Source: Arthrobacter sp. RIT-PI-e (lineage in GTDB: Bacteria > Actinomycetota > Actinomycetes > Actinomycetales > Micrococcaceae). Taken from it: 49,712 nt of DNA. The stretch spans positions 1 through 49,712 of the forward strand of contig NZ_LGIU01000099.1 of assembly GCF_001187915.1 (NCBI RefSeq), in the 5' to 3' direction. The translations under genes and the position numbers were made by a program. Below the pieces are notes generated by a model. The model saw only the letters and a program-made list of their open reading frames with translations, was not told the origin of the DNA and ran no database searches. Below are positions 26,820-41,113 of the stretch, piece after piece (the first letter of the stretch is position 1; each line of letters opens with the position of its first letter).

Positions 26820-28000
26820 ACGGAGGTGACCATCTCGAGGGGTGCGGACGTGGTGCTCACATCGGCGAGGTCGAGGCGCCGCCCCGACCGGGAGCTCTCG
26901 AGGCCCTGCTCCGCGAGGTACATGCCGCGGGCGCCCGCGAGGAAGTCGTAGGGGTGGGGGGCGTCCTCCAGCACGTGGCGCAGGAACTGCTCCCACTGGG
27001 TCTTGAACCCGTTCTCGAACACCTCGTTGGTGGGGATGTCCAGCCAGTCGGCGTCATAGTCGTGGGAATCCTCGATGTCGGGGTTCCACACGGGCTTGGG
27101 TGTGGCGTTACGGGGCTGGATCTTGCAGCCGAACAGCCCCACGACGGCGGAGCCGTGCGTGCCGTCCACCTGGAACTGCACCAGCTCGTCCCGGTTCACG
27201 CGCACCGTCCAGCTCGAGTTCACCTGCGCGATGATGCCGCCCTCGAGTTCGAACACCGCGTAGGCGGCGTCGTCGGCGGTGCCCCGGTAGGTGGCACCCT
27301 GCTCGTCCACGCGCTCGTCGATGTGCGTCACCGCCCGGGCGTAGACCGATTCCACCTTGCCGAACAGGTTCTCCAGCACGTAGCTCCAGTGCGGGAACAT
27401 GTCCACCACGATCCCGCCGCCGTCCTCGGCGCGGTAGTTCCAGCTGGGGCGCTGAGCCTGCTGCCAGTCGCCCTCGAAGACCCAGTAGCCGAACTCGCCG
27501 CGGACCGAGAGGATGCGGCCGAAGAAACCGGAGTCGATCAGGCGCTTGAGCTTCTGCATGCCCGGCAGGTACAGCTTGTCGTGCACCACGCCGTTCTTGA
27601 TGCCCGCCTCCTCCGCGAGCCGGGCCAGCTCCAGGGCGTCGGCGGCGGTCTCCGCGGTCGGCTTCTCGGTGTAGACGGCCTTGCCGGCGGCGATCGCCTT
27701 CCGGATGGCGGCTGCCCGTGCCTTGGTCACCAGGAAGTCCGCATAGATCTCCCAGCGGGGATCCGCGAGGACGCCGTCCAGGTCCGTGGAGTAGTGCTCG
27801 ATGTCGTGCTTGGCCGCCAGCTCGGCGAGCTTGGCCTCGTTGCGGCCCACGAGGATCGGTTCCACCTGGACGCGGGTGCCGTCGGAGAGGAGCACCCCTC
27901 CCTGGTCCCGGATCGCGAGGATGGAGCGCATCAGGTGCTGCCGGTACCCCATCCGCCCGGAGACGCCGTTCATGATGATGCCGATTGTCCTCGTTGACAT
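26816..28000 (-). CDS. Gfo/Idh/MocA family oxidoreductase
   Basis: 394 residues. NAD(P)-dependent dehydrogenase of sugars, inositols or glycosides. The Rossmann start TIGIIMNGVSGRMGYRQHL has an unusual MNGVSGRMG glycine loop. The catalytic motif VYTEKPTAE contains the EKP lysine. NGVVHDKLYLPGMQKLKRLIDSGFFGRILSVRGEFGYWVF, GGGIVVDMFPHWSYVLENLFG and a C-terminal alpha/beta domain complete the fold. The ATG at 28000 has AGGAG 6 bases upstream; the 105-base in-frame extension covers the promoter and operator and is not coding. It is the first gene of the dehydrogenase-DUF993-isomerase-SnoaL operon, controlled by the LacI-type operator at 28030-28043. Confidence 0.85.
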   Translation of the reverse strand: MSTRTIGIIMNGVSGRMGYRQHLMRSILAIRDQGGVLLSDGTRVQVEPILVGRNEAKLAELAAKHDIEHYSTDLDGVLADPRWEIYADFLVTKARAAAIRKAIAAGKAVYTEKPTAETAADALELARLAEEAGIKNGVVHDKLYLPGMQKLKRLIDSGFFGRILSVRGEFGYWVFEGDWQQAQRPSWNYRAEDGGGIVVDMFPHWSYVLENLFGKVESVYARAVTHIDERVDEQGATYRGTADDAAYAVFELEGGIIAQVNSSWTVRVNRDELVQFQVDGTHGSAVVGLFGCKIQPRNATPKPVWNPDIEDSHDYDADWLDIPTNEVFENGFKTQWEQFLRHVLEDAPHPYDFLAGARGMYLAEQGLESSRSGRRLDLADVSTTSAPLEMVTSV

Positions 28001-28029: not shown

Positions 28030-28043
28030 GGAAAGCGTTTACC
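28030..28043 (-). promoter_or_regulatory. LacI-type operator upstream of the dehydrogenase operon
   Basis: Reads GGTAAACGCTTTCC on the minus strand, with the central CG of LacI-family operators. A TACACT -10 box (28047-28052) lies 3 bases upstream, so the predicted transcription start falls in the operator. It matches the sites at 35970 and 39739. Confidence 0.7.
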
Positions 28044-28046
28044 GAA

Positions 28047-28052
28047 AGTGTA
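28047..28052 (-). promoter_or_regulatory. -10 box of the dehydrogenase operon
   Basis: TACACT on the minus strand, followed 3 bases later by the LacI-type operator. The transcription start is expected near 28040, giving a leader of about 40 bases. Confidence 0.5.
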
Positions 28053-28159
28053 GGGGAAGACGGTGCGGAGGGGAAGACAGCGGTGAGGGAAGGAGTGCGG
28101 TGCAACGAGGCCGAGCCCAGGGGGAGGCGGATGCCACGGGGGATGGCCGTGCGCGCCGC

Positions 28160-28444
28160 TCAGGCGTCGGGGCGGAGATCCCGGCGGCGGCAGCGCGCGG
28201 CGTCCACCCAGGCCTCCCGCGCCCGTGAGTACTCGATCCACTGGGCGAGGACCAGCGTCCCGGTCCACGCCATGGCGAAGCCCTTCCTGGTGGAGGTGGA
28301 ACCGTCCGGGTAGTCCAGGTCCACCCAGAGAGCCGGGGATCTCGTGGGCTCCGTGATGCCCTCGCTCGGAGCGGCCCGCTGCAGCGGTGGGACGAACCGG
28401 TCCGCGCCCGGCGGGATCCCCTGCCATCCCGGGGTCTGTGTCAT
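28160..28444 (-). CDS. small hypothetical protein
   Basis: 94 residues, not recognised as a named family. It is Trp- and Pro-rich at the N-terminus (MTQTPGWQGIPPGADRFVPPL) and has a compact conserved-looking C-terminal part: LWVDLDYPDGSTSTRKGFAMAWTGTLVLAQWIEYSRAREAWVDAARCRRRDL. It has no signal peptide or membrane helix. The ATG at 28444 is preceded by TACCCT with 6 bases between, the leaderless pattern, which supports expression. It faces away from the next plus-strand gene and lies upstream of the dehydrogenase operon on the same strand. Confidence 0.65.
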   Translation of the reverse strand: MTQTPGWQGIPPGADRFVPPLQRAAPSEGITEPTRSPALWVDLDYPDGSTSTRKGFAMAWTGTLVLAQWIEYSRAREAWVDAARCRRRDLRPDA

Positions 28445-28450
28445 GTGCCG

Positions 28451-28456
28451 AGGGTA
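28451..28456 (-). promoter_or_regulatory. leaderless -10 box of the 94-residue hypothetical gene
   Basis: TACCCT on the minus strand, 6 bases before the ATG at 28444. Confidence 0.4.
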
Positions 28457-28530
28457 CGGTCCGGCTCCGACAACCGGAGGTCCTGCAGGGCCGTGCTCCG
28501 GCAGCCGTGCCGGGGGTGGGGCTCTCTGGT

Positions 28531-28536
28531 TAGGAT
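28531..28536 (+). promoter_or_regulatory. -10 box upstream of the 74-residue hypothetical gene
   Basis: TAGGAT; the start would be near 28543, giving a leader of about 100 bases before the ATG at 28641. GAGGTGG precedes that ATG by about 9 bases. No strong -35 box is seen. Confidence 0.35.
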
Positions 28537-28640
28537 TGGGCCACGACGTCGCCGGCCACCCGTCCGTGCCCTTCCCGGCCGGCCGGTGGGCCGTGCCGGC
28601 GTCGTGCTCCCGATCGACGAGATGTGAGGTGGCCAGAGTC

Positions 28641-28865
28641 ATGACCGACGACGATCTGCAGAAGATCCGCGTAGCCGCGGCGGACAAGGAGGATGTCGAG
28701 TTCGAGCTGGACCGGGCCGAGCTGGTGCTGCAGGAGGCCGTGGCAGAGGCTCTCCACCACGGCGAGGACCCCGCGGTGGTGGCGGAGATCTCCGAGCTGC
28801 CGCTCGAGGACGTCCGGAAGCTCGCCGGCGAGGAATCGGACATGAACCCGGTTCTTCCCTTCTGA
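28641..28865 (+). CDS. small acidic hypothetical protein
   Basis: 74 residues, highly charged and predicted helical: MTDDDLQKIRVAAADKEDVEFELDRAELVLQEAVAEALHHGEDPAVV, then AEISELPLEDVRKLAGEES. The last part resembles a small helix-turn-helix (a helix, a LPLED turn, a second helix), so it might bind DNA or a polymerase partner, but no family name is recognised. It ends MNPVLPF. A GAGG site lies in front of the ATG at 28641. It is convergent with the lacI gene, 46 bases apart, with only a 5 bp GCGGG/CCCGC hairpin between them. Confidence 0.6.
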   Translation: MTDDDLQKIRVAAADKEDVEFELDRAELVLQEAVAEALHHGEDPAVVAEISELPLEDVRKLAGEESDMNPVLPF

Positions 28866-28911
28866 CCCCGGCCCGCCGGCCGGGAAGCGAGCGGGAGCAC
28901 CCCGCCCGGGA

Positions 28912-29952
28912 TCAGCCGCGGTGGGGTGTGCTGTCGCGGAACACGAGTTCGGTACGGAGGGGTGGGGATCCGGGGTCGGCCCCCGTCGCCGCCCCGGTGG
29001 CGAGCAGGAGTGCCCGGCGGCCCACCTCCTCGAGCGGGATCCGCACCGTGGTCAGTGCCGGGGTGATGTCGCGTACGGTCGGGATGTCGTCGTACCCGGC
29101 CACCCCGACGTCCCCGCCGGGATCCCGTCCCGCCTCACGCAGTGCGGAGACCACGCCCACGGCCATGACGTCGTTGACCGCGAACACCAGGTCCACCGGC
29201 ATGCCCGTCGCCAGGAGTTCCCGCGTACCGCGGTGACCGCCGTCGCGCGTGAAGTCCGCGTGGACGATGCGCTCCGGGGGCAGGTCGACGCCCTGCTCGG
29301 CGAGGCCGTCGCGGAAGCCGTCGAGTCGTTCCTGTGCCGTGCGGAGGTCCTGCGGACCGGCGATCACGGCGAACCTCCGGTACCCGCGCCCCACCAGCCC
29401 GCGGGCGAGGTCGCGGGCGCCACCGCGGTTGTCCAGCAGCACGGTGGCGAACGGTGCGGCGTCCTGGCTGATGAACGCCACCTTGCCACCGGTGGCCTCG
29501 AAGGAGGACAGCTCGGCCCGCAACCGCTCCTCGAAGGGGGATCCTGCCGTCCGTGAGCCGGCGAGGATGATCACGCGCGGGCGTTGACCGCGCAGGGCCC
29601 GTACGGTCTCCAGCTCGCGTCCGCCGTCCCTGCCGGTCACCGCGATGGTGACCACCAGCCCCTCCGCGCTCGCGGCGTCGATCACCCCGGCGGCGATGCT
29701 CGAGAAGTAGGGGTCCGCGATGTCGGCCACCAGCAGCGCCACCGTGGTGGTGCTGCCCTTCGCCACGGCCTGCGCGAAGAGATTCGTGGTGTACCCGAGC
29801 CGTTCGGCGGCCTCGAGGACCCGCAGGCGGTAGGACTCGTTCACCTTCCGGGCGCTCCCGTTGAGCGATCTCGACGCCGTCGCCAGCGACACCCCCGCCT
29901 CCCGTGCCACGTCGTGCAGGGTGGTGGGGCTCTTGCTGGCCGGTGCCGACAT
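28912..29952 (-). CDS. LacI-family transcriptional repressor
   Basis: 346 residues. The N-terminal HTH plus hinge helix is TTLHDVAREAGVSLATASRSLNGSARKVNESYRLRVLEAAERLGY. The periplasmic-binding-like effector domain follows: VALLVADIADPYFSSIAAGVIDAA, VILAGSRTAGSPF, FAVIAGPQDLRTAQERLDGFRDGL, FAVNDVMAVGVVSALREAGRDPGGDVGVAGYDDIP. It senses a sugar or sugar phosphate. The ATG at 29952 has AGGAG 5 bases upstream. It is the only LacI protein in the window and the obvious candidate for the three GGWMAACGYTTTCC operators at 28030, 35970 and 39739. No such site is seen in front of its own gene. Confidence 0.9.
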   Translation of the reverse strand: MSAPASKSPTTLHDVAREAGVSLATASRSLNGSARKVNESYRLRVLEAAERLGYTTNLFAQAVAKGSTTTVALLVADIADPYFSSIAAGVIDAASAEGLVVTIAVTGRDGGRELETVRALRGQRPRVIILAGSRTAGSPFEERLRAELSSFEATGGKVAFISQDAAPFATVLLDNRGGARDLARGLVGRGYRRFAVIAGPQDLRTAQERLDGFRDGLAEQGVDLPPERIVHADFTRDGGHRGTRELLATGMPVDLVFAVNDVMAVGVVSALREAGRDPGGDVGVAGYDDIPTVRDITPALTTVRIPLEEVGRRALLLATGAATGADPGSPPLRTELVFRDSTPHRG

Positions 29953-30108
29953 GTGCGCTCCTGGGGACCGGGGGAGGCGGGCCCCCGCCCCCGCCCGCCA
30001 CTGGGGGGAAAGGGCCATTGTCGCCCGCGGCAACGGGGCCCCCGGGGCGCGCTCACCCCCCGGGGCGCCCGCGCCCCCCCCCCCGGCGCGGCGCGCGGCC
30101 CGTCCTGT
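29953..30108. other. intergenic region with homopolymer runs
   Basis: 156 bases between lacI and the end of ptsI. It contains a run of 11 C (30074-30084) and two copies of CCCCCGGGGCGC about 20 bases apart. The inverted GC blocks could form a ptsI terminator on the minus strand. No gene is seen. The homopolymers make local base-calling uncertain. Confidence 0.5.
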
Positions 30109-31794
30109 TCAGAGCCCCAGGGACTCCAGTACCGGGAGTTCCGCGCGGGCACGCGAGCGTGCCTCCGACGCCGTGGGGGCGGTCACCGCGAGTTCGGCGA
30201 TCCGCTGGGCGTCCGCCAGCGTCACGCTGCCGAGCACGGCCCCGACGCCCGCGAGTGCGCGCGGAGTCATGGAGAGGGTCGAGACCCCGAGTCCCACGAG
30301 GACGACGGCGAGCGCGGGGTCGGCGGCGGCCTCGCCGCACACACCCACGGACTTCACCCCGGCATGTGCCCGGGAACCCTCGACGGTCAACCGGACCATG
30401 CGCAGGACCGCCGGCTGCCAGGAGTTGTTGAGGGCGGCCAGCGGGCCGAGCTGACGATCGGCGGCCATGGTGTACTGCGTGAGGTCGTTCGTGCCGAGGC
30501 TCGCGAAGGAGACCTCGCCGAGGATCTCCTCGGACATCAGTGCGGCGGACGGCACCTCCACCATCACCCCGGGGGTCCGGAGCCCGGCGGCGGCGCACAG
30601 GCCGGCGAACGCGGCGGCCTCCTCCGGCGTCGAGATCATCGGGGCCATCACCCACACATCGGCGGTGGCCCGGGCCCCGGCGGCCGCGATGGCCCTCAGC
30701 TGCCGCCCGAGGGCACCGGGGGGGGGGAGATCCGTGCGGGAGCCGCGCACCCCGAGGGCGGGGTTCGGCTCGGAGGCGTCGGTGAGGAAGGGCAGGGGCT
30801 TGTCGGCGCCGGCGTCGAGGGTGCGCACCACCACCTTCTTGCCGGGGAACGCGTCGAAGACGCCCCTGTACGCCTCGATCTGCTCCTCGGGGGTGGGCTC
30901 GGTGTCCCGTTCGAGGAAGCAGAACTCGGTGCGCAGCAGGCCCACCCCCTGGGCGCCGGCCTCGGCGGCCTTCGCGGCATCCTTCGCGCCGCCCACGTTG
31001 GCGAGCAGGGGTACCTCGTGACCGTCGAGGGTCGCGCCGGTGCCGTCGAAGACGCTGAGCACCGCCGCGGCTGCCCGGTAGGCCGCGGCGGCCTCCCCCT
31101 CCGCCGCGCCAGGGTTCAGGGAGACCGTGCCGGCCATGCCGTCCACGAACACCGCGGCGTCGTGGTCGATGCCCTCCACGCCGGTGGCCGCCACCACGGC
31201 GGGAAGCCCGAGGGACCTGGCGATGATGGCGGTGTGGGACTGTGGGCCGCCACCGGAGGTGACGAGGGCCAGCACCGTGGTGGGGTCGAGCGTGGCGGTG
31301 TCCGCGGGGGCGAGGTCCTCGGCCACGAGCACGAAGGGGGTGTCCGACGTGGGGATCCCCGGCGCCGGGAGGCCCCGGAGCTCGGCGACGATCCGGGAGC
31401 GGACGTCGAGGACGTCGGCGGTGCGCTCGGCCATGTAGCCGCCGAGGGTGTGCAGCATCTCGGCCACGGAGGCACCGGCTTCCCAGACGGCGCGTGCCGG
31501 GGAAGTGCCCTTGGTGATGAGCTTGGTGGCAGATTTCAGCAGCATGGGGTCCGCCGCCATGAGGGAGGTGGCCTGCAGGACGGCCTGGGCGTCACCCTTG
31601 GCGAGGGAGGCCCTGCGCTTGAGGTCCTCCTGCACGGCCCTGGACGCCGACTTCAGTGCGGCGACCGCCTGGTCCGTACCCTCGGGGTCCTCGAGGCGCT
31701 CCCCGGCGGGGGGCTCACCCACCGGCTTCGGCATGTGGCGGACCGGACCGATCACGCGACCTGCACTGACCCCGACCCCTGCGAAATTCTCCAT
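30109..31794 (-). CDS. ptsI: phosphoenolpyruvate-protein phosphotransferase (PTS enzyme I)
   Basis: General PTS enzyme that takes phosphate from PEP and passes it to HPr. The active His187 is in SGGGPQSHTAIIARSLGLPAVV. The PEP-binding domain has GVGLLRTEFCFLERDTEPTPEEQ, VVRTLDAGADKPLPFL, EVPSAALMSEEIL, SLGTNDLTQYTMAADR and the catalytic Cys486 in CGEAAADP. The 561 residues fit. GGAGGA lies 6 bases before the ATG at 31794. The stretch DLPPPGALG is coded partly by a run of 10 G (30718-30727) and differs from family sequence, though the length is preserved. No HPr gene is in the window. It is divergent from tetR-mtlA-mtlD. Confidence 0.93.
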   Translation of the reverse strand: MENFAGVGVSAGRVIGPVRHMPKPVGEPPAGERLEDPEGTDQAVAALKSASRAVQEDLKRRASLAKGDAQAVLQATSLMAADPMLLKSATKLITKGTSPARAVWEAGASVAEMLHTLGGYMAERTADVLDVRSRIVAELRGLPAPGIPTSDTPFVLVAEDLAPADTATLDPTTVLALVTSGGGPQSHTAIIARSLGLPAVVAATGVEGIDHDAAVFVDGMAGTVSLNPGAAEGEAAAAYRAAAAVLSVFDGTGATLDGHEVPLLANVGGAKDAAKAAEAGAQGVGLLRTEFCFLERDTEPTPEEQIEAYRGVFDAFPGKKVVVRTLDAGADKPLPFLTDASEPNPALGVRGSRTDLPPPGALGRQLRAIAAAGARATADVWVMAPMISTPEEAAAFAGLCAAAGLRTPGVMVEVPSAALMSEEILGEVSFASLGTNDLTQYTMAADRQLGPLAALNNSWQPAVLRMVRLTVEGSRAHAGVKSVGVCGEAAADPALAVVLVGLGVSTLSMTPRALAGVGAVLGSVTLADAQRIAELAVTAPTASEARSRARAELPVLESLGL

Positions 31795-31817
31795 CGAACG
31801 TCCTCCATCCCTTGCCC

Positions 31818-31835
31818 TGGTGACCTCGGTCACCA
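31818..31835. promoter_or_regulatory. 18-base palindrome at the ptsI start site
   Basis: TGGTGACC-TC-GGTCACCA, perfect 8-base arms. A TAGGGT -10 box for ptsI (minus strand, 31835-31840) touches its edge, so the predicted start lies inside the palindrome, as expected for a repressor site. It differs from the LacI-type operators elsewhere. Confidence 0.55.
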
Positions 31836-31856
31836 CCCTAGTGCCGCGTGGTGGCT

Positions 31857-31875
31857 CGCGCACGGCCCGTGCGCG
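31857..31875. promoter_or_regulatory. 19-base palindrome in the ptsI-tetR intergenic region
   Basis: Perfect 9-base arms CGCGCACGG / CCGTGCGCG around one C. It could be a regulator site for either divergent gene or simply a GC-rich stem; no regulator is assigned. Confidence 0.35.
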
Positions 31876-31905
31876 TCGCAGCGCTGCTCCACGCCAAGTT
31901 CGTCG

Positions 31906-31921
31906 TGTGATCCACTTCATA
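31906..31921. promoter_or_regulatory. possible CRP/GlxR-like site
   Basis: TGTGA-TCCACT-TCATA matches the TGTGA-N6-TCACA consensus except one base. It lies near the -35 position of the tetR promoter and between mannitol and general PTS genes, where cAMP control is plausible. Confidence 0.3.
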
Positions 31922-31936
31922 TAACACCGCTATAGG

Positions 31937-31949
31937 TGCTACGGTAGCA
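31937..31949. promoter_or_regulatory. palindrome over the tetR -10 box, probable autoregulatory operator
   Basis: TGCTAC-G-GTAGCA, perfect 6-base arms. It contains the -10 box TACGGT (31940-31945), which is 7 bases before the ATG at 31953, so a bound regulator would block this leaderless promoter. Confidence 0.55.
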
Positions 31950-31952
31950 GTC

Positions 31953-32681
31953 ATGAAAAAAGTGGGCGAACCAGCGCCTAAGCAGCGGCTGCTCCGGGCC
32001 GCTGCGGCGTTGCTCGCCGAGTCGGGCGGCGAGGCCGTCTCCACCCGGCAGATCACGCAGGCCGCACGGGTCACCGCTCCCACCCTGTACCACCACTTCG
32101 GTGACAAGGAGGGTCTGTTCGACGCCGTCGTCGCCGAGGGGTTCGCCGAGTACCTGGACGTGGAACGGGCCCTGCCGGCATCGGGTCACCCCATCGAGGA
32201 TCTCCGGCTGCACTGGGACAACCACGTGCGGTTCGGCCTCGGGAACCCGCACCTCTACCTGGTGATGTTCGGCAACATCCGGCCCGAACGCAGGTCCTCC
32301 ATGGTGAGCAGCGCGGAGGCCTTCCTCGAGGAGGTACTGGCACGGGCCGCCGTGGCGGCCCGACTCGTGGTGACACCGCGGGAAGCGGCGCGCAGCATGC
32401 TCGCGGCGAACATCGGTGTCACCCTCATGCTGATCGCGGAACCGGCGGAGAAGCGGAACCTCGAACTGTCCGCCATGACGCGGGAGGCCGTGATCTCGGC
32501 GGTGGCCACGGACTCGGAGGCGGACCCGACCACCGACACGGAGGGTACGCCCTCGGTGGTGGTGGCGGCGATCGCCCTCAATGCCGCACTGCAGTCCTCC
32601 CACCCCGACCAGCTCTCGAGCTCCGAACTGAAGCTCTTCCTCGAATGGCTACAACGCATCTCCAGCAGGTCCGGAAGCTGA
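31953..32681 (+). CDS. TetR-family transcriptional regulator
   Basis: 242 residues. The HTH is QRLLRAAAALLAESGGEAVSTRQITQAARVTAPTLYHHFGDKEGLFDAVVAEGFAEYL, a textbook TetR DNA-binding domain with the PTLYHHFGDKEGL recognition segment. The C-terminal domain (about residues 70-242) binds an unknown ligand and includes a charged, Thr-rich loop (DSEADPTTDTEG). A perfect palindrome over its own promoter suggests autoregulation. mtlA follows 58 bases downstream on the same strand, so it may control mannitol uptake, in place of the usual MtlR activator. That role is inferred from position only. Confidence 0.85.
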   Translation: MKKVGEPAPKQRLLRAAAALLAESGGEAVSTRQITQAARVTAPTLYHHFGDKEGLFDAVVAEGFAEYLDVERALPASGHPIEDLRLHWDNHVRFGLGNPHLYLVMFGNIRPERRSSMVSSAEAFLEEVLARAAVAARLVVTPREAARSMLAANIGVTLMLIAEPAEKRNLELSAMTREAVISAVATDSEADPTTDTEGTPSVVVAAIALNAALQSSHPDQLSSSELKLFLEWLQRISSRSGS

Positions 32682-32702
32682 CGCTTCCGAACGAATCCGA
32701 TC

Positions 32703-32720
32703 CCCCGCGGTGCTGCGGGG
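32703..32720 (+). terminator. hairpin between tetR and mtlA
   Basis: CCCCGC (32703-32708) pairs with GCGGGG (32715-32720) around a six-base loop. There is no T-tract; possibly an attenuator that lowers or conditions mtlA expression from the tetR promoter. Confidence 0.4.
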
Positions 32721-32739
32721 TCAACCGTAAGGACGGAAA

Positions 32740-34716
32740 GTGGCAATACAAGCAGAAGCGAGATCGGGCACCAGTGCCCGGGTCCGCGTCCAGAAGTTCG
32801 GGACGTTCCTGTCCGGCATGATCATGCCGAACATCGGGGCGTTCATCGCCTGGGGTATCATCACGGCCCTGTTCATCGAGGACGGCTACGCCCCCGTAGG
32901 GGTGCTCGGTGGCTTCGGTGAGAACGCGGACGGGGACCCGAACACGGGCCTCGTGGGCCCGATGATCACGTATCTCCTGCCCCTCCTGATCGCCTACACC
33001 GGCGGCCGGATGGTCTACGACGTCCGCGGTGGTGTGGTGGGCGCCGCGGCGACCATGGGTGTGATCGTGGGTACGGACATTCCCATGTTCATCGGCGCCA
33101 TGATCATGGGCCCGCTGACGGCCTACCTGATGAAGAAGATCGACTCCATCTGGGACGGCAAGATCCGCCCCGGGTTCGAGATGCTCGTCAACAACTTCTC
33201 CGCGGGGATCTTCGCGGCTCTCATGGCCCTCTTCGGGCTCTTCGCGGTAGGTCCCGTGGTCACGCTGTTCACGGATGCGGCCGGCCGCGGCGTGGACCTC
33301 CTGGTCAACACCGGCCTCCTGCCGCTGACCAGCATCCTGATCGAACCGGCCAAGATCCTGTTCCTCAACAACGCCATCAACTACGGCGTCCTCACCCCGC
33401 TGGCCACGCAGGAGTCCACCGAGACCGGGAAGTCCCTCCTTTTCCTCATGGAGGCCAACCCCGGCCCCGGCCTCGGCCTGCTGCTGGCCTTCGCGATCTT
33501 CGGCCGCGGCATGGCGAAGGCCTCGGCGCCGGGTGCGATCATCGTGCAGTTCATCGGTGGCATCCACGAGATCTACTTCCCGTACGTGCTCATGAAGCCG
33601 CTGATGATCCTGTCCGTGATCGGTGGCGGCATGGTGGGTATCCTCACCCTCGTGATCACCGGCGCAGGTCTGCGCTCGCCCGCGGCACCCGGCAGCATCA
33701 TCGCCGTGTACGCCGCGACGGCGTCGGACAGTTTCGTCGGCGTCACGCTCTCGGTGCTGCTCGCCGCTGCCACGTCCTTCCTCATCGGCTCGGTCATCCT
33801 GAAGACCACCAAGTCCACGGAGGACGACATGGCCGGTGCCGCCGCGAAGATGGAGGGTCTCAAGGGCAAGAAGAGCTCCGTGACCGGGAACTTCTCCTCC
33901 GGCACCGCGGCGACGGACGGCCCCATCCGTACCATCGTGTTCGCCTGCGACGCCGGCATGGGCTCCTCCGCCATGGGCGCCTCGGTGCTCCGCAACAAGA
34001 TCAAGGCCGCCGGGTTCCCGGACGTCAAGGTCACCAACTCCGCCATCGCGAACCTGAAGGACGACTACGACATCGTGGTCACCCACCAGGATCTCGCCGC
34101 GCGCGCCGAGCCCCTGACGCAGAGCGCCACGCACGTCGCGGTGGACAACTTCATGGGCAGCCCCCGCTACGACGAGATCGTGGAACTGGTGCGCGCCAGT
34201 GCATCGGCGGACGGCGGGCTCGACCCGAAGAATCCCATGCCCGCCGCGGTGGCCGCGGACGCCGACGACGAGGCCGCCGCCTCGGGCGACGTCCTCGCCG
34301 AGCAGAGCGTGATCCTCCAGGGCCGTGCCACCACCCAGGAGGACGCGATCAACGAGGCGGGCCGCCTGCTGGTGGACCGCGGTGCCGTGGACACCAGCTA
34401 CGTGGCCGCCATGCACGAGCGCGAGAGGTCAGTCCCCACCTACATGGGCAACTTCCTCGCGATCCCGCACGGCACCAACGCCGCGAAGGACCTCATCAAG
34501 CGCTCCGCCGTCTCGATCGTGCGCTACCCCGAGGGCATCGACTGGAACGGCAAGCAGGTCAAGTTCGTGGTGGGTGTCGCCGGCATCAACAACGAGCACC
34601 TCACCATCCTCTCCGCCATCGCCCGGGTCTTCTCGGACAAGGAGCAGGTGGCCAAGCTGGACGAGGCCACCACGGTGGACGAGGTCCTGGCACTCTTCGG
34701 GAAGGTCAACGCCTAG
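32740..34716 (+). CDS. mtlA: mannitol-specific PTS enzyme IICBA
   Basis: Membrane transporter that imports and phosphorylates mannitol to mannitol-1-phosphate. All three domains are fused in 658 residues. EIIC (about 1-350) has eight or so hydrophobic segments and the motif GGIHEIYFPYV. EIIB (about 395-490) has the phosphocysteine Cys403 in FACDAGMGSSAMGASVL. EIIA (about 515-658) has the active His577 in LAIPHGTNAAKD. GTG start at 32740 with AAGGA 7 bases upstream. The stop shares one base with the mtlD start. It needs enzyme I (ptsI, divergent upstream) and an HPr not present in the window. Confidence 0.95.
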   Translation: MAIQAEARSGTSARVRVQKFGTFLSGMIMPNIGAFIAWGIITALFIEDGYAPVGVLGGFGENADGDPNTGLVGPMITYLLPLLIAYTGGRMVYDVRGGVVGAAATMGVIVGTDIPMFIGAMIMGPLTAYLMKKIDSIWDGKIRPGFEMLVNNFSAGIFAALMALFGLFAVGPVVTLFTDAAGRGVDLLVNTGLLPLTSILIEPAKILFLNNAINYGVLTPLATQESTETGKSLLFLMEANPGPGLGLLLAFAIFGRGMAKASAPGAIIVQFIGGIHEIYFPYVLMKPLMILSVIGGGMVGILTLVITGAGLRSPAAPGSIIAVYAATASDSFVGVTLSVLLAAATSFLIGSVILKTTKSTEDDMAGAAAKMEGLKGKKSSVTGNFSSGTAATDGPIRTIVFACDAGMGSSAMGASVLRNKIKAAGFPDVKVTNSAIANLKDDYDIVVTHQDLAARAEPLTQSATHVAVDNFMGSPRYDEIVELVRASASADGGLDPKNPMPAAVAADADDEAAASGDVLAEQSVILQGRATTQEDAINEAGRLLVDRGAVDTSYVAAMHERERSVPTYMGNFLAIPHGTNAAKDLIKRSAVSIVRYPEGIDWNGKQVKFVVGVAGINNEHLTILSAIARVFSDKEQVAKLDEATTVDEVLALFGKVNA

Positions 34717-35873
34717 TGAAGGCAGTACATTTCGGCGCGGGGAACATCGGCCGCGGCTTTGTGGGGCTCCTGCTCCACGAAGCCGGGTACGAGGTGGTCT
34801 TCGCCGACGTCGCGGACGCCCTGATCGATCAGCTCGCCTCCACCCCGAGCTACGACGTCCACGAGGTCGGTGAGAACCCCGCGGTGAAGACCGTGGACAC
34901 CTATCGGGCGCTGAACTCCCGCTCGCAGGAGGACGACGTCGTCGCGGAGATCGCCACGGCGGACATGGTCACCACCGCGGTGGGACCGAACGTCCTGAAG
35001 TTCCTGGCCCCGGTGATCGCCCGGGCGATCGCGCGGCGGGACCAGGCGCTGGCCCCGCTGCAGGTGATGGCGTGCGAGAACGCGATCAACGCCACCGACA
35101 CCCTGCGCCGTGAGGTGGAGCAGGCCCACGAGGGTCCGTCCGCGGACCTGGAGTCCAGGGCGGTGTTCGCGAACACCGCGGTGGACCGGATCGTCCCGAA
35201 CCAGGCGCCCGGACAGGGGCTCGACGTCACCGTGGAGACCTTCTTCGAGTGGGTCATCGACCGCACGCCGTTCGGGGGCAACGCCCCCGAGATCCCTGGT
35301 GCCACGTACGTCGACGACCTCGGACCGTACATCGAGCGCAAGCTGTTCACGGTGAACACGGGCCACGCCGCCGCAGCATACTTCGGGTCCGCCGCGGGGC
35401 TGGAGAAGATCTCGGACGCCATGGCGGACGAGGGGATCGCGGGCAGGGTGGAGGCGGTGCTCGGGGAGACCAAGCAGCTGCTCATCACCAAGCACGGGTT
35501 CGAACCGGCTGAGCAGGAGGCATACGTCCGGAAGATCCTCACCCGGTTCACGAACGAGCACCTGCCCGACACCGTGGTGCGCGTGGGCCGGGCTCCGCTG
35601 CGGAAGCTGAGCCGGCGGGAGCGTTTCGTCGGCCCGGCCGCCGAGCTCGCCGAGGCGGGCGTGCAGCCCGTGGCGCTGCTGGGGGCCATGCGGGCGGCGC
35701 TGTCCTTCTCGGCACAGGACGATCCCGAGGTGACCGCGCTCGCGGAGATCCTGTCCACGCAGGAGCCGGACGAGGCCACGACGTCGATCACCGGTCTCAC
35801 CGCCGATCATCCGCTGTTCTCAGCGGTGCACGACCTGGTGGCGGCGCGTGCATCGGAGGTCCGGGCGGGCTGA
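34716..35873 (+). CDS. mtlD: mannitol-1-phosphate 5-dehydrogenase
   Basis: NAD-dependent oxidation of mannitol-1-phosphate to fructose-6-phosphate in the cytoplasm, directly after the PTS step of MtlA. The N-terminal Rossmann motif is AVHFGAGNIGRGFVGLLLHEAGYEVVFADV. MACENAINATDTLRREV, FANTAVDRIVPNQ, and KLFTVNTGHAAAAYFG with the catalytic region follow. Length 385 is normal. The GTG start overlaps the mtlA stop (TAGTG), so the two are coupled. A strong terminator follows at 35897-35922, closing the tetR-mtlA-mtlD unit. Confidence 0.95.
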   Translation: MKAVHFGAGNIGRGFVGLLLHEAGYEVVFADVADALIDQLASTPSYDVHEVGENPAVKTVDTYRALNSRSQEDDVVAEIATADMVTTAVGPNVLKFLAPVIARAIARRDQALAPLQVMACENAINATDTLRREVEQAHEGPSADLESRAVFANTAVDRIVPNQAPGQGLDVTVETFFEWVIDRTPFGGNAPEIPGATYVDDLGPYIERKLFTVNTGHAAAAYFGSAAGLEKISDAMADEGIAGRVEAVLGETKQLLITKHGFEPAEQEAYVRKILTRFTNEHLPDTVVRVGRAPLRKLSRRERFVGPAAELAEAGVQPVALLGAMRAALSFSAQDDPEVTALAEILSTQEPDEATTSITGLTADHPLFSAVHDLVAARASEVRAG

Positions 35874-35896
35874 CGCGGATGGTACCTGCAGGGAGG

Positions 35897-35922
35897 GGGA
35901 GCGGCTACGGCCGCTCCCTTTT
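35897..35922 (+). terminator. rho-independent terminator after mtlD
   Basis: GGGAGCGGC (35897-35905), TACG loop, GCCGCTCCC (35910-35918), then TTTT (35919-35922). It is the most canonical terminator in the window. Confidence 0.85.
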
Positions 35923-35935
35923 CCGTGTCACTCCC

Positions 35936-35964
35936 TTGACGACGGCGCCGGCGGTGCACAGAGT
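35936..35964 (+). promoter_or_regulatory. promoter of the PL11 lyase gene
   Basis: TTGACG (35936-35941), 17 bases, CAGAGT (35959-35964). The predicted start is near 35971, within the LacI-type operator. Confidence 0.6.
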
Positions 35965-35969
35965 GATCA

Positions 35970-35983
35970 GGTAAACGTTTTCC
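35970..35983 (+). promoter_or_regulatory. LacI-type operator of the PL11 lyase gene
   Basis: GGTAAACGTTTTCC, one base different from the site at 28030. It begins 5 bases after the -10 box and covers the predicted transcription start. Confidence 0.75.
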
Positions 35984-36000
35984 AGATGAAGGATTCAACG

Positions 36001-38577
36001 ATGAGTTCGGTCAAGAGAACAGTGGTCCCCGCGTGCATCGCCCTGGCCACCAGCTCCATCCTCCCCCTCGGAACCCTCGCCGTCCCCGCCGCGGCGCAGG
36101 GCCCCGGCGGGGCGCACGGCCCGGCGTCGTCGATCGGGGGAGTGCAGCTCGAGTACCTCGATCGCGGACTCGTGGGGGCCCTGACCCCGGAGGGGGTGCA
36201 CCTCAGCTGGCGGCTGACGGCCACCGAGGTCACGGGGGCCACTGCAGCCGGTTTCACCGGGGCGGACTTCACGGTCTACCGCGACGGCGAACCGATCGCC
36301 ACCGTCACGGACAGCACCAACTATCTCGACGCGGACGTGGTCGACCCCTCGGCCGCGGCGGCCGCGCGCTACAGCGTGGGCGCCGTCGTCGGCGGCGTGG
36401 AGGTCGAGGTGAGTGGCGAGGTGACCCCCTGGGCACAGGACTACCTGGACCTGCCGCTGCAGAAGCCCGCCGACGGCGTGACCCCGGCGGGCGAGGCCTA
36501 CACCTACACGGCGAACGACATGAGCGTGGGGGACGTGACCGGGGACGGCCGGTACGAGCTCGTCGTCAAGTGGGATCCCTCCAACTCGAAGGACGTCTCC
36601 CAGATCGGGTACACGGGCAACACCTACATCGACACCTACACCCTCGAGGGGCGGCTGCTGAGCCGGATCGACCTCGGGGTCAACATCCGCTCGGGCGCCC
36701 ACTACACCCAGTTCATGGTCTCCGACTTCGACGGCGACGGTCGCTCCGAGCTGATGCTGAAGACCGCGCCGGGAACGAGGACCACCACCTACGGGCCGGA
36801 CGGGGAGGTCACGGCCGAGAACTACGTGACCCTGCCGAAGGCGGACGCCAGGGCGGGCGTACGGCACGACGACGACTACCGGTTGAGCACCGAGGGCTAC
36901 TACGAGCACGTGGTGGACATGTTCGCCGGGTGGCAGGACCACCCGGAGGTGGTGGCAGGGAACTGGCCGGCCACCCTCGAGGAGGCCTTCGGGATCGAGC
37001 AGCGGTACCAGTACCCGCTGTCCGACGCCGATGCCCGCGCCATGACGGACTACTTCATGGACGAGTACGCACCGTCTCGTAGTGCACGGAACAACCTGCG
37101 GGCCTTCGAGGGCTTCGTCGTGGACGGGCCGGAGTACCTCAGCGTGTTCGACGGCGCCAGCGGCGCCGAGCTGCAGACCATCCCGTACGAGCCCGGACGC
37201 GGCGACGACGGCCTGCTGTGGGGCGACTACGCGATGTCCCGGATCGAGCCGGGCAACCGCGTGGACCGCTTCCTCGCGGGTGTGGCCTACCTGGACGGCG
37301 AGCACCCCTCGGCGATCTTCGCCCGCGGCTACTACACCCGCTCCAACATCGTGGCCTACCGGTGGGACGGGAAGAAGCTCACCCGGCAGTGGCACGTGGA
37401 CTCCGGGCACGTGCCCATGACCAACCCTTTCAACGACGGCCCGCACGGGGGAGCGGGTACCAGCGAGGAGTTCGGCACCCTCGCCGGCCAGGGCTTCCAC
37501 TCGTTGAGCGCGGCCGACGTCGACGGCGATGGCAAGCACGAGATCGTCTACGGCAGTGCCACGATCGATTCCGACGGCTCCCTGCTCTACAGCTCGTTCG
37601 ACGTCCTCCCCGAGGGCAGCGCAGCGCCGGGGACGGTGGCCAAGCTCGGCCACGGGGACGCCATGCACGTGGCGGACATCGACCCGGACCGCCCGGGCCT
37701 GGAGATCTTCACCGTCCACGAGGGCGGTGCGTACGCACCGTACGGCTGGGCCATGCGGGACGCCGCCACCGGAGAGGTGCTCTTCGGCGGGTACACGGGC
37801 AAGGACACCGGTCGCGGCATGATCGGGGACATCGACCCCGCCACACGCGGGCTGGAGAACTGGGCGGTGGGCCTGCGCTCCGCCTCCGGTGAGCTCCTGC
37901 CCGGCAACGGACCCGGCACCAACATGAGCATCCGGTGGGCGGCGGACGGCACCACGCAGCTCGTCAACGGGACGGCGGACCAGGACGTCACCATCGACGA
38001 CGTACGGCGTGGACGTCTCCTGACAGCCACGGGCACCCGGACCAACAACGGCACCAAGGGCAATCCGTCCCTCGTGGCGGACATCCTCGGCGACTGGCGC
38101 GAGGAGCTGCTGGTGCGCACGGCGGACAGCTCGGCGATCCGGATCTTCACGAGCACCGAGGTCACGGACCGCAAGCTGTACACGCTGATGCACGATCCCC
38201 AGTACCGCGCGGAGATCGCCCGGCAGAACACGGTGTACAATCAGCCCGCGTATACGGGCTTCTACCTCGCCTCGGACACGGACTTCACCGAGGTCCCCGT
38301 CCCGGACGTCTTCCTGCCCGGTGCGCTGCCCGCCCTGCAGGCGCGGTTGGACCAGCTGATCGCGGACGGCCGGGTGACCGGTCCCGTCGCACGGCAGCTC
38401 CAGGCGTCACTGGACCAGGCGCAGCGGGCCGTCGCCCGGGACCAGTCGCGCATGGCCGTCCAGGCGATGGAGAAGTTCCTCGACCGGCTGAACCAGCAGA
38501 AGACCAAGGCCGTGTCTCCCGGGGTGCGGGACGTCCTCACCCACCACGGCACGGTGATCCTCTCGATGCTGCGGTAG
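36001..38577 (+). CDS. secreted rhamnogalacturonan lyase, PL11 family
   Basis: 858 residues. Cuts the rhamnose-galacturonate backbone of pectin by beta-elimination; B. subtilis YesW/YesX are the best-known relatives. It starts with a signal peptide (VKRTVVPACIALATSSILPLG...AAA, cleavage about residue 33), then an FnIII-like domain (YLDRGLVGALTPEGVHLSWRL). The beta-propeller carries calcium-type DxDGDG repeats (VTGDGRYELVVKWDPSNSKD, DFDGDGRSELMLKT, DVDGDGKHEIVYGS) and GNRVDRFLAGVAYLDGEHPSAIFARGYYTR. The last about 90 residues (LQARLDQLIADGRV... KFLDRLNQQKTKAVSPG) resemble a FIMAH domain. The ATG at 36001 has AAGGA 7 bases upstream; an in-frame ATG at 35986 is less suited. No cell-wall anchor is seen. 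Confidence 0.9.
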   Translation: MSSVKRTVVPACIALATSSILPLGTLAVPAAAQGPGGAHGPASSIGGVQLEYLDRGLVGALTPEGVHLSWRLTATEVTGATAAGFTGADFTVYRDGEPIATVTDSTNYLDADVVDPSAAAAARYSVGAVVGGVEVEVSGEVTPWAQDYLDLPLQKPADGVTPAGEAYTYTANDMSVGDVTGDGRYELVVKWDPSNSKDVSQIGYTGNTYIDTYTLEGRLLSRIDLGVNIRSGAHYTQFMVSDFDGDGRSELMLKTAPGTRTTTYGPDGEVTAENYVTLPKADARAGVRHDDDYRLSTEGYYEHVVDMFAGWQDHPEVVAGNWPATLEEAFGIEQRYQYPLSDADARAMTDYFMDEYAPSRSARNNLRAFEGFVVDGPEYLSVFDGASGAELQTIPYEPGRGDDGLLWGDYAMSRIEPGNRVDRFLAGVAYLDGEHPSAIFARGYYTRSNIVAYRWDGKKLTRQWHVDSGHVPMTNPFNDGPHGGAGTSEEFGTLAGQGFHSLSAADVDGDGKHEIVYGSATIDSDGSLLYSSFDVLPEGSAAPGTVAKLGHGDAMHVADIDPDRPGLEIFTVHEGGAYAPYGWAMRDAATGEVLFGGYTGKDTGRGMIGDIDPATRGLENWAVGLRSASGELLPGNGPGTNMSIRWAADGTTQLVNGTADQDVTIDDVRRGRLLTATGTRTNNGTKGNPSLVADILGDWREELLVRTADSSAIRIFTSTEVTDRKLYTLMHDPQYRAEIARQNTVYNQPAYTGFYLASDTDFTEVPVPDVFLPGALPALQARLDQLIADGRVTGPVARQLQASLDQAQRAVARDQSRMAVQAMEKFLDRLNQQKTKAVSPGVRDVLTHHGTVILSMLR

Positions 38578-38595
38578 GAGCCCGCAGCCGGTCCC

Positions 38596-38629
38596 GGGCC
38601 GGGGGTGCGGATGCCGGCACCCCCGGCCC
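38596..38629. terminator. bidirectional terminator hairpin
   Basis: A perfect 13 bp stem (38596-38608 with 38617-38629) and an 8-base loop, between the convergent PL11 and CE7 genes. No T-tract. Confidence 0.7.
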
Positions 38630-38655
38630 GTGGCGTGCCTGCCGCGTGCTGCGTC

Positions 38656-39639
38656 CTACTGCCCGAGGACCTCCCGGAGGAACCGGAGGTGCTCCACGTC
38701 CTGGAAGGCACCACCCTGCTCGTGCCCGTTGTAGGGGTACACCTTCATCTGCTTGGGCCCCGCGTAGTGGTTGTGGGCCGCGAAGACGCAGGACGGCGGG
38801 CAGACGTCGTCCTGCAACCCCACCGAGAACAGCGCCGGGACGGTGCTCCGGGCGGCGAAGTTGACGCCGTCGAAGTAGCTCAGCGTGCGGAACACGGCGT
38901 CGACATCGTTCCTGCGGGTCGCCAGGTACCGCACGATCTCCGCGTACGGGGCGGAGTCCGTGATCTCGGTGGCGTGCCGCATGTGGGCGAGGAACGGGAC
39001 GTCCACGATCGCCCCGGCCGGGGCTGCGCTCCCGGAGCGCTGCACGAGCCCCGCAGCGGCGAGGGTGATCCCGCCACCCTGGCTGCCTCCGGAGAGCACC
39101 ACGCGGGCGGGATCGACGGCGGGATGGGACCGCGCGGCGGCGACGGCATGCACGGCGTCCACGAAGAGCCGGCGGTAGTAGTACGTCCGGGGGTCCTGGA
39201 CACCGAGGGTCATGAAGCCGCCGGCGTGGGGGCCCGCCAGCGGGCCGTCCGCGGTGTCACCCGTGCGATGACCGGCGCCCTGCCCGCGGAGGTCCATCAC
39301 GAAGTGCGCATAGCCCGCGCTGGGCAGTGCCGTCCACTCCCCGAGCAGGCCGCGGCCCCCGCCGTAGCCGATGAAGGTGACCACGGTGGGCAGCGGACCG
39401 GGAAGATGACGCGGCGTGAGCATCCAGCCCTTGACGGGGTGCCCGCCGTATCCTGCGAAGGTGACGTCCTCGGTCACGAGCTGGGTGTACCCGGCGTCGA
39501 TCTCCTCGAAGGACGGCGCCCTGAGGTGCGGGTGCTGCTCGTCGAGGGTGCGGTCCCAAAACGCATCGAAGTCGTCGGGTTCGTCCCGCTCGGGCAGGTA
39601 GCGCCGGAGATCGGGCAGGGGCAGGTCGAAGAAGGGCAT
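38656..39639 (-). CDS. CE7-family acetyl esterase (acetyl xylan esterase / cephalosporin-C deacetylase type)
   Basis: 327 residues, no signal peptide, so it acts on imported oligosaccharides in the cytoplasm. The alpha/beta-hydrolase triad is visible: Ser186 in SGGSQGGG, Asp277 in LQDDVCPPS, His306 in NGHEQGG. The N-terminus MPFFDLPLPDLRRYLP and DLRGQGAG are CE7 signatures. The ATG at 39639 is preferred over 39648 because a CAGGAT box lies 7 bases before it. It is flanked by the PL11 lyase and the sugar ABC importer, so it may deacetylate rhamnogalacturonan fragments; CE7 enzymes are generally broad, so the natural substrate is an inference. Confidence 0.87.
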   Translation of the reverse strand: MPFFDLPLPDLRRYLPERDEPDDFDAFWDRTLDEQHPHLRAPSFEEIDAGYTQLVTEDVTFAGYGGHPVKGWMLTPRHLPGPLPTVVTFIGYGGGRGLLGEWTALPSAGYAHFVMDLRGQGAGHRTGDTADGPLAGPHAGGFMTLGVQDPRTYYYRRLFVDAVHAVAAARSHPAVDPARVVLSGGSQGGGITLAAAGLVQRSGSAAPAGAIVDVPFLAHMRHATEITDSAPYAEIVRYLATRRNDVDAVFRTLSYFDGVNFAARSTVPALFSVGLQDDVCPPSCVFAAHNHYAGPKQMKVYPYNGHEQGGAFQDVEHLRFLREVLGQ

Positions 39640-39646
39640 GGGGTGC

Positions 39647-39652
39647 ATCCTG
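39647..39652 (-). promoter_or_regulatory. leaderless -10 box of the CE7 esterase gene
   Basis: CAGGAT on the minus strand, 7 bases before the ATG at 39639. The esterase has no copy of the LacI-type operator between this box and its start. Confidence 0.4.
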
Positions 39653-39706
39653 CCACGACCCGGGACGATCCGGGCGGCGGTACCGTGATGCCGGTCACCT
39701 TTTCGG

Positions 39707-39735
39707 TTGACGATTGATACGATTCAACCTACGCT
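39707..39735 (+). promoter_or_regulatory. promoter of the sugar ABC importer operon
   Basis: TTGACG (39707-39712), exactly 17 bases, TACGCT (39730-39735). The start is expected near 39742, leaving a leader of about 60 bases. Confidence 0.65.
39714..39727 (+). promoter_or_regulatory. second LacI-type operator between -35 and -10
   Basis: TTGATACGATTCAA: outer arms TTGA/TCAA around a central CG, a 14-base LacI-family design but a different sequence from the GGWMAACGYTTTCC sites. It fills the -35/-10 spacer. GGTTGA and TCAACC also frame the region. Confidence 0.45.
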
Positions 39736-39738
39736 GGC

Positions 39739-39752
39739 GGACAACGCTTTCC
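39739..39752 (+). promoter_or_regulatory. LacI-type operator of the ABC importer operon
   Basis: GGACAACGCTTTCC, starting 3 bases after the -10 box and covering the predicted start. It shares 12 of 14 bases with the site at 28030. Confidence 0.7.
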
Positions 39753-41094: not shown

Positions 41095-41113
41095 GCAGAC
41101 AGGGACCTCGATC

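Follow-up and report, generated by a model that had tools for sequence, protein, structure and literature searches.

The stretch of DNA analysed here (the window) is contig NZ_LGIU01000099.1 of Arthrobacter sp. RIT-PI-e, 49,712 nucleotides in length, and it encodes a LacI-family regulator together with three sets of genes for carbohydrate use. One is an operon for a Gfo/Idh/MocA oxidoreductase (GFO), a DUF993 protein and a xylose-isomerase-like TIM barrel (TIM), here called the trio; another encodes a rhamnogalacturonan lyase of family PL11; the last is an operon for an ATP-binding cassette (ABC) importer that ends in a GH42 gene. Comparative genomics supports the proposal of a preceding sequence-only reading that the LacI protein controls the trio, the PL11 lyase and the importer as a single regulon, most likely as their common repressor (probability of about 0.83, judged from sequence).

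The regulator is predicted to bind a 14-bp palindrome close to GGWAARCGYTTTCC, found at three places whose coordinates and strands were confirmed. Operator 1, GGTAAACGCTTTCC (28030–28043, minus strand), lies 30 bp from the GFO start codon (28000); operator 2, GGTAAACGTTTTCC (35970–35983, plus strand), lies 17 bp before the PL11 start codon (36001); and operator 3, GGACAACGCTTTCC (39739–39752, plus strand), occupies the intergenic region between genes for an AXE1-family esterase (start 39648) and the solute-binding protein of the importer (start 39802). These are even palindromes with a central CG, placed upstream of their targets, a form described for most LacI-family operators (PMC4052901). 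A −10 box had been reported before every site, which holds for two of them: TACACT stands 3 bp before operator 1 and TACGCT 3 bp before operator 3, but the hexamer before operator 2 is weak (CAGAGT, 5 bp off), with TTGACG 17 bp upstream of it. The predicted PL11 promoter thus extends over 35936–35964 (plus strand; TTGACG at 35936–35941, a 17-bp spacer, CAGAGT at 35959–35964), and in relatives it comprises TTGAC and CCTAG-type elements. The predicted importer promoter (39707–39735, plus strand) consists of TTGACG at 39707–39712, a 17-bp spacer and TACGCT at 39730–39735 and is conserved in relatives. As far as these promoter predictions go, the operators would overlap the transcription starts of the trio, PL11 and importer operons.

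The sites are rare. The exact consensus, GGWMAACGYTTTCC, occurs at three places in the 3.46-Mb genome, all of them the sites described above, and the reversed control pattern at none, so that the scatter of unrelated matches that would have refuted the sequence-only reading does not appear among exact matches. When up to three mismatches are allowed, the window contains 24 matches against 10.1 expected, a number reached in none of 100 shuffles. With up to two mismatches the whole genome yields 93 rows, equal to 86 places, against 33 rows for the reversed control. Eight of these places score at least 14 on a weight matrix. Besides the three sites they comprise GGAAACCGCTTTCC, which accompanies a second PL11 gene on contig 51, GGTAATCGCTTTCC on contig 13, AGAAAACGTTTTCT next to a further lacI gene on contig 53, and two unannotated places (contigs 32 and 82). 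The contig 13 site (L118, 11502–11515) has a mandelate-racemase-family gene on one side and a second ABC permease operon on the other and possibly marks a further member of the regulon. Scores inside the window are 23.8, 23.3 and 19.7 for the three sites and do not exceed 9.8 elsewhere; 100 mononucleotide shuffles of the window gave a highest single score of 20.8 and a median of maxima of 11.2. Because the matrix, built on 15 sites of the genus, was partly trained on the three window sites, and the shuffle maximum is 20.8, the score alone does not prove the third site, which is therefore accepted on its conservation.

Conservation was followed in a genus set of 38 genomes, that of the window and 37 relatives. 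The exact consensus is present in 19 of the 38, with 21 places outside the genome of the window: 12 before PL11 beside mtlD, one at a second PL11 type, three before the trio, one at a GH35 gene (G031), one before an ABC operon, and three that match no protein of the window. All 23 relatives carrying the trio have the operator before it. Fifteen relatives, referred to as clade A, encode the window's LacI at 71–87% identity (the match in G002 covers residues 1–219 only). In this clade the site is found before PL11 in all 14 genomes whose fetched stretch includes that gene (two of them differ at the outermost base), before the importer in 12 of 12 stretches reaching it, before 13 of 13 clade-A-type trios, and approximately 100–130 bp before lacI in 15 of 15. 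Two genomes, G022 and G026, combine a clade-A LacI with the other trio type and have kept the operator before the trio.

Clade B comprises eight genomes with a LacI 44–48% identical to that of the window. Sites precede the trio in 8/8, PL11 in 7/7 (G018 has no PL11) and the importer in the 5/5 stretches reaching it. Here the LacI gene adjoins the trio, and PL11 and the importer lie about 75–117 kb off in G012, G013, G031, G035 and G037 and on other contigs than LacI and trio in G030 and G036. The sites of the sequence-only reading are thus kept in relatives before the trio, PL11 and the importer.

Additional PL11 genes carry the site as well. The second PL11 type has it near the start in 11 of 11 loci, including the contig 51 gene in the genome of the window. 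A long third type, present in 15 relatives (L308–L322) and not found in the genome of the window, was considered as a site-less negative control and rejected for that purpose, as GGGAAGCGTTTTCC-like sites occur near the start in 15/15. They score 14.2–19.0 bits, each the best of its stretch, and 14 of them lie at most 220 bp from the open-frame start; in L310 the frame opens further upstream and the site falls 1076 bp into it. The third type adds regulon members in relatives.

The genes of a mannitol phosphotransferase system (PTS), which sit midway between the trio and lacI on one side and PL11 and the importer on the other, had been noted as lying in between and prove no obstacle. The window's ten best-scoring places all lie outside them, and in G026 (L111) the LacI gene is part of a PL11/importer/GH42 cluster without mannitol genes. 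The mannitol cluster was accordingly rejected as a part of the regulon, having no high-scoring site and not standing between these genes in G026.

The association between operator and trio reaches beyond the genus. DUF993 is present in many actinobacterial genera, and among the 80 loci listed out of 581 confirmed DUF993 places, GFO, DUF993 and TIM occur together in 79, with L248 lacking GFO. In 67 of these 79 loci the highest-scoring site falls in the 300 bp that precede GFO. For 75 loci outside the genus, it falls in the 300 bp preceding the trio in 62, a count that drops L248, two loci belonging to the genus (L186, L227) and two with GFO at a contig edge. Forty palindromic, column-permuted matrices applied to the same 75 loci averaged 3.65. 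The 14-mer of operator 1 recurs unchanged before the trio in seven loci (L187, L188, L189, L193, L201, L205, L216). Further sites in other genera stand before a pectate lyase gene (in Cryobacterium), a GH43 gene, Gfo/Idh genes, and genes for solute-binding proteins and permeases. One record of this set, L186 (WNZI01000010.1), is titled Vibrio cholerae strain 35D yet carries the actinobacterial cluster; it and contig 10 of the genus member G025 are both 88219 nt long, and the record looks mislabelled.

Which protein binds these sites is suggested by the distribution of LacI. The frame given for the window's lacI (28912–29952, minus strand) is correct and encodes 346 amino acids with a helix-turn-helix (HTH) containing GVSLATASR and the hinge AQAVA; PF00356 (LacI HTH) and PF13377 (Peripla_BP_3, an effector domain resembling sugar-binding proteins) match above cut-off. 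The 24 best matches to this protein occur one each in 24 of the 38 genomes, exactly the 24 bearing DUF993. PL11 is found in 23 of the 38, all among those 24; the exception, G018 (L289), has no PL11 and a DUF993 in two pieces. In a tree, the window's LacI and 70 LacI proteins encoded near a trio (within about 6.5 kb) form one clade with support of 100/100, outside of which fall 15 other LacI proteins from the same loci and 13 others from the genome of the window, three of whose 17 LacI (L057, L066, L067) the tree leaves out. Two LacI lineages of the genus go with PL11, one branching within the Microbacteriaceae and the other within the Micrococcaceae; L227 holds a third. The hinge shows a rough correspondence to the half-site GCATTCC, with exceptions, and the comparison of recognition helix and operator was not used as evidence. 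Gene neighbourhood, phylogeny and phyletic pattern together support the assignment of this LacI protein, as predicted from sequence, to the three operators.

Several observations weigh against this account. The 70 LacI proteins entered the tree because each was the top match in the vicinity of a trio, a choice that favours the recovery of one clade. The relatives do not count as independent cases, and the phyletic match is a count made without a species tree. Site-anchored alignments give 0.94–0.98 for the site columns, 0.59–0.74 for the 50 bp upstream and 0.49–0.86 for the 30 bp downstream; being ungapped, they understate upstream conservation, and the downstream value at the PL11 site (0.86) is also high. 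The highest count among the 40 permuted matrices, obtained with one of them, was 53 of 75 loci. Only 8 of the 80 DUF993 loci match PL11, GH42, GH51 or AXE1 queries. The LacI protein encoded on contig 53, 33% identical to that of the window, has AGAAAACGTTTTCT in its promoter region (score 20.9), so cross-talk with the regulon is possible. Finally, the window's lacI itself is without the operator found before lacI in 15/15 clade-A relatives.

The last point concerns a peculiar stretch of the window. Positions 29953–30110 have a G+C content of 86% with runs of C and G, and ptsI nearly abuts lacI across them. The operator before lacI and a second Gfo/Idh gene, the divergent neighbour at that operator in L099 and L110, are present in relatives and both gone in the window, and the junction may be a deletion or an assembly fault or misjoin. 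Relatives also have a GAF-ANTAR protein gene between lacI and the trio (L099, 16510–17241; L110, 13456–14184); ANTAR proteins act on RNA. At the contig 53 locus (L120, AGAAAACGTTTTCT at 5619–5632), LacI stands beside a divergent Gfo/Idh gene.

The same sites could be shared out among regulators. If at least two LacI proteins recognised near-identical operators, the window's LacI might serve the trio (and, in relatives, its own promoter) and a paralogue PL11 and the importer. The genome encodes 17 LacI HTHs, the contig 53 gene has AGAAAACGTTTTCT in its promoter region, and even palindromes with a central CG are common to most LacI-family operators according to PMC4052901, all of which suits such a division of labour. 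Judged from the LacI genes of the trio and PL11 loci, it is nonetheless improbable: the clade-B LacI gene beside the PL11 cluster carries a different palindrome, TGAATCGATTCA, in its promoter region, and the clade-A ortholog is encoded in or near the PL11/importer cluster with the site before lacI in 15/15. A global LacI-type regulator of carbon catabolism is far less probable still: the motif does fit a general LacI/CcpA-like pattern, TGNAANCGNTTNCA, but a genome with three exact sites and eight places scoring at least 14 among those with up to two mismatches offers little for a global regulator to bind, and five of the eight are associated with the trio, PL11 genes, the importer or an ABC operon, a sixth with a different lacI gene, while the remaining two are unannotated. 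Chance resemblance, which could appeal to the shortness of LacI-like palindromes and to the 3 of 21 exact places in relatives without a recognised target, is rejected on the shuffles, the reversed control and the conservation, and its probability is close to nil. Control by the one LacI protein is the reading carried forward.

The importer promoter contains another palindrome, TTGATACGATTCAA (39714–39727), between its −35 and −10 elements, which is proposed to be the operator of a RhaR-like LacI. The pattern TTGANNCGNNTCAA matches the genome at 39714–39727 only, but its reversed control also has one place, so this uniqueness alone says little. The palindrome recurs at the importer promoter in 13 clade-A and five clade-B stretches. 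In clade B, the promoter region of the LacI gene that adjoins the PL11 cluster contains TGAATCGATTCA. The best match of the encoded protein in the genome of the window (73.6% identical, on contig 39) bears TTGAATCGTTTCAT. The contig 39 gene is divergent from a TIM-barrel gene and a gene for an 808-aa fusion of a class II aldolase and a dehydrogenase; RhaEW is described with the same architecture (PMC3870299). The same source describes a LacI-type RhaR in Actinomycetales, associated with an ABC system for rhamnose-containing oligosaccharides. The contig 39 protein is named RhaR-like because of its RhaEW-type neighbours and this precedent, and, judging from these sequences, we infer that it binds 39714–39727. 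The clade-B LacI of the PL11 cluster was considered as the binder of the GG...CC sites and is a less likely candidate, given TGAATCGATTCA in its own promoter and a best match beside predicted rhamnose genes. Among the window genes scanned, no rhamnose gene was recognised beside the window's own LacI, which is accordingly not counted as a RhaR. RhaA (PF06134) gave weak matches only, in G026 and in six clade-B genomes, where they lie about 1–2 kb from the gene of the RhaR-like LacI. As the importer would have a second operator, its expression would depend both on rhamnose and on the inducer of the window's LacI, two separate signals for uptake.

The substrate of the trio is the more doubtful part of the account. 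The trio is encoded on the minus strand in the order GFO (26816–28000; PDB 3oqb, E 2e-150), DUF993 (25665–26819) and TIM (24775–25647; PDB 3ju2, SMc04130, E 2e-65). Domain scan and alignment place the second protein in DUF993, and its model (pLDDT 77) is that of a DHDPS-like TIM barrel: Foldseek matches it to PDB 4dnh (SMc04132) at E 3e-35 and then to DHDPS entries at E of about 1e-8 and TM of about 0.58 to the query. Lys225, in the motif GVKxSLL, is invariant in 12 aligned sequences and is a candidate for the Schiff-base lysine; a search for a residue-level match to a DHDPS returned 4dnh and one unrelated weak match. The Sinorhizobium meliloti proteins SMc04132 and SMc04130, related to DUF993 and TIM respectively, are without known function, and no paper naming DUF993, PF06187 or 4DNH was found in the open literature searched, a scope that leaves most subscription journals outside.

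PL11 products normally need an unsaturated galacturonyl hydrolase, as described in PMC3870299. The corresponding domain PF07470 (GH88/GH105) is absent from the genome of the window and present in one of the 38 genomes (G036), which leaves 22 of the 23 PL11-bearing genomes of the genus without it; other families with this activity were outside the search. KduI and the enzymes that follow it act after this hydrolase. KduI (PF04962), the one family searched for this step, is absent from the genome of the window; a match occurs in 9 of 38 genomes, with E below 1e-80 only in G017, G018, G020, G021 and G036. The aldolase family PF01081 is patchy (18 of 38 genomes, that of the window included) and decided nothing. 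With GH88/GH105 and KduI missing, the usual use of the lyase products is missing too, and together with a DHDPS-like DUF993 protein bearing an invariant lysine this prompted the suggestion of a role for the trio in using the uronate half, the weakest step of the account. That DUF993 is a lysine-dependent aldolase of the DHDPS type acting on a sugar acid from the galacturonate half, as its predicted structure might suggest, is put forward tentatively and is rather unlikely to be correct in this form. Equally speculative is the wider picture in which the trio forms a new route, independent of GH105 and KduI, for the galacturonate half of the rhamnogalacturonan-I repeat, with DUF993 as its DHDPS-superfamily aldolase. 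RhaR would in that case sense the rhamnose and the DUF993-associated LacI the uronate of the imported unit, their stacked operators making the importer promoter a two-key lock. A glycerate kinase gene stands beside the LacI gene of the trio in L191 and L214, and its gene cluster occurs in 18 of the 80 loci, which hints at a three-carbon product.

The regulon could also be drawn correctly and the trio handle some other plant sugar that merely signals plant material, for example a cyclitol, a sugar acid or a sugar of the side chains; the chance of this is only a little short of even. It is in keeping with the GH42 gene that ends the importer operon, with the arabinofuranosidase gene adjoining lacI in G026 and with the GH35 gene that has a site in G031. 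So is the low number of loci with a pectin-cluster match (8/80), from which it follows that the substrate need not be specific to rhamnogalacturonan. The S. meliloti counterparts, for which no function is known, point the same way, the locus tags near SMc04132 and SMc04130 including an oxidoreductase and an ABC binding protein. In favour of the uronate half, PL11 of the genus occurs solely in genomes bearing DUF993 (23/23), and 22 of these 23 lack GH88/GH105, which leaves the uronate half without that known route. The link to rhamnogalacturonan drawn in the sequence-only reading therefore stands in so far as it concerns shared sites and co-occurrence, while the substrate and chemistry of the trio stay inferred.

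The PL11 lyase (36001–38577, plus strand) has 858 amino acids and an N-terminus that by eye resembles a signal peptide. The AXE1-family esterase, assigned by domain scan (38656–39648, minus strand), is divergent from the importer and may belong to the regulon, as operator 3 lies 90 bp upstream of its start. The importer operon (plus strand) comprises the solute-binding protein (39802–41094), two permeases (40838–42100 and 41647–43017, open-frame bounds with the real starts further in) and, last, the GH42 frame (43014–45713), whose N-terminal match to DUF624 is below the Pfam cut-off. In G026 the DUF624 and GH42 parts of this frame align as separate pieces; it is possibly a fusion of a membrane protein to GH42.

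Related systems are known. LacI-family regulons for rhamnogalacturonides and rhamnose are described for RhiR in Rhizobiales and Erwinia and for RhaR in Actinomycetales (PMC3870299). Like the present system, these place uptake and breakdown of rhamnose-containing oligosaccharides under LacI-type control, and the RhaR regulons of several Actinomycetales include the ABC system rhiLFG, as far as that account goes (PMC3870299). Here, in contrast, a separate LacI clade is assigned to PL11, the importer and the DUF993 trio, the RhaR-like site is an extra on the importer, and GH88/GH105 is missing; the systems were compared by description and not by operator motif. The rhamnogalacturonan cluster yes/ytc of Bacillus subtilis reportedly combines PL11, GH42, an ABC importer, an esterase and a DUF624 protein, as found here. 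Unlike that cluster, the window has no GH105, a regulator of another class and an extra Gfo/Idh–DUF993–TIM operon. The levoglucosan pathway LgdA-LgdB1-LgdB2-LgdC proceeds by oxidation, elimination, hydration and reduction, and its cluster likewise unites oxidoreductases, enzymes annotated as sugar phosphate isomerases, a LacI protein and an ABC importer, according to PMC7676230. However, no DHDPS-like enzyme is among its four, and although the levoglucosan dehydrogenase model is the best NCBIfam match of GFO, it scores 64.1 bits, far below the cut-off of 650.

DUF993 shares with the DHDPS/NAL superfamily, to which PDB 4dnh (SMc04132) belongs, the TIM-barrel fold, and the invariant lysine of its GVKxSLL motif may correspond to the Schiff-base lysine of that superfamily. 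Identity in the listed fold matches other than 4dnh is 12–18%. Members of the superfamily have a YNxP motif with a tyrosine, whereas DUF993 appears to have a histidine at this place, in LHWLG. The system is thus a LacI-type carbohydrate regulon in kind, distinguished by an unexplained DUF993 pathway, an importer promoter with two operators and the absence of the usual enzymes.

In the scheme that this suggests, the LacI protein would occupy its palindrome at the promoters of the trio, PL11 and the importer with GH42, the intergenic region on the importer side also serving the divergent AXE1 esterase gene. Without inducer the three operons would be off, repression being the presumed sign of control. 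An inducer, most likely an intermediate of rhamnogalacturonan-I breakdown, would free the repressor, upon which the polymer would be cut, its pieces imported and part of them processed by the trio. RhaR would then take charge of the rhamnose half and the trio of the uronate half.

The regulon ties the unknown DUF993 family, with its structure 4dnh, to PL11 lyases and an importer, and so provides a testable hypothesis for its role. If true, it would account for the use of the rhamnogalacturonan-I backbone by PL11-bearing bacteria that have no GH105 or KduI.

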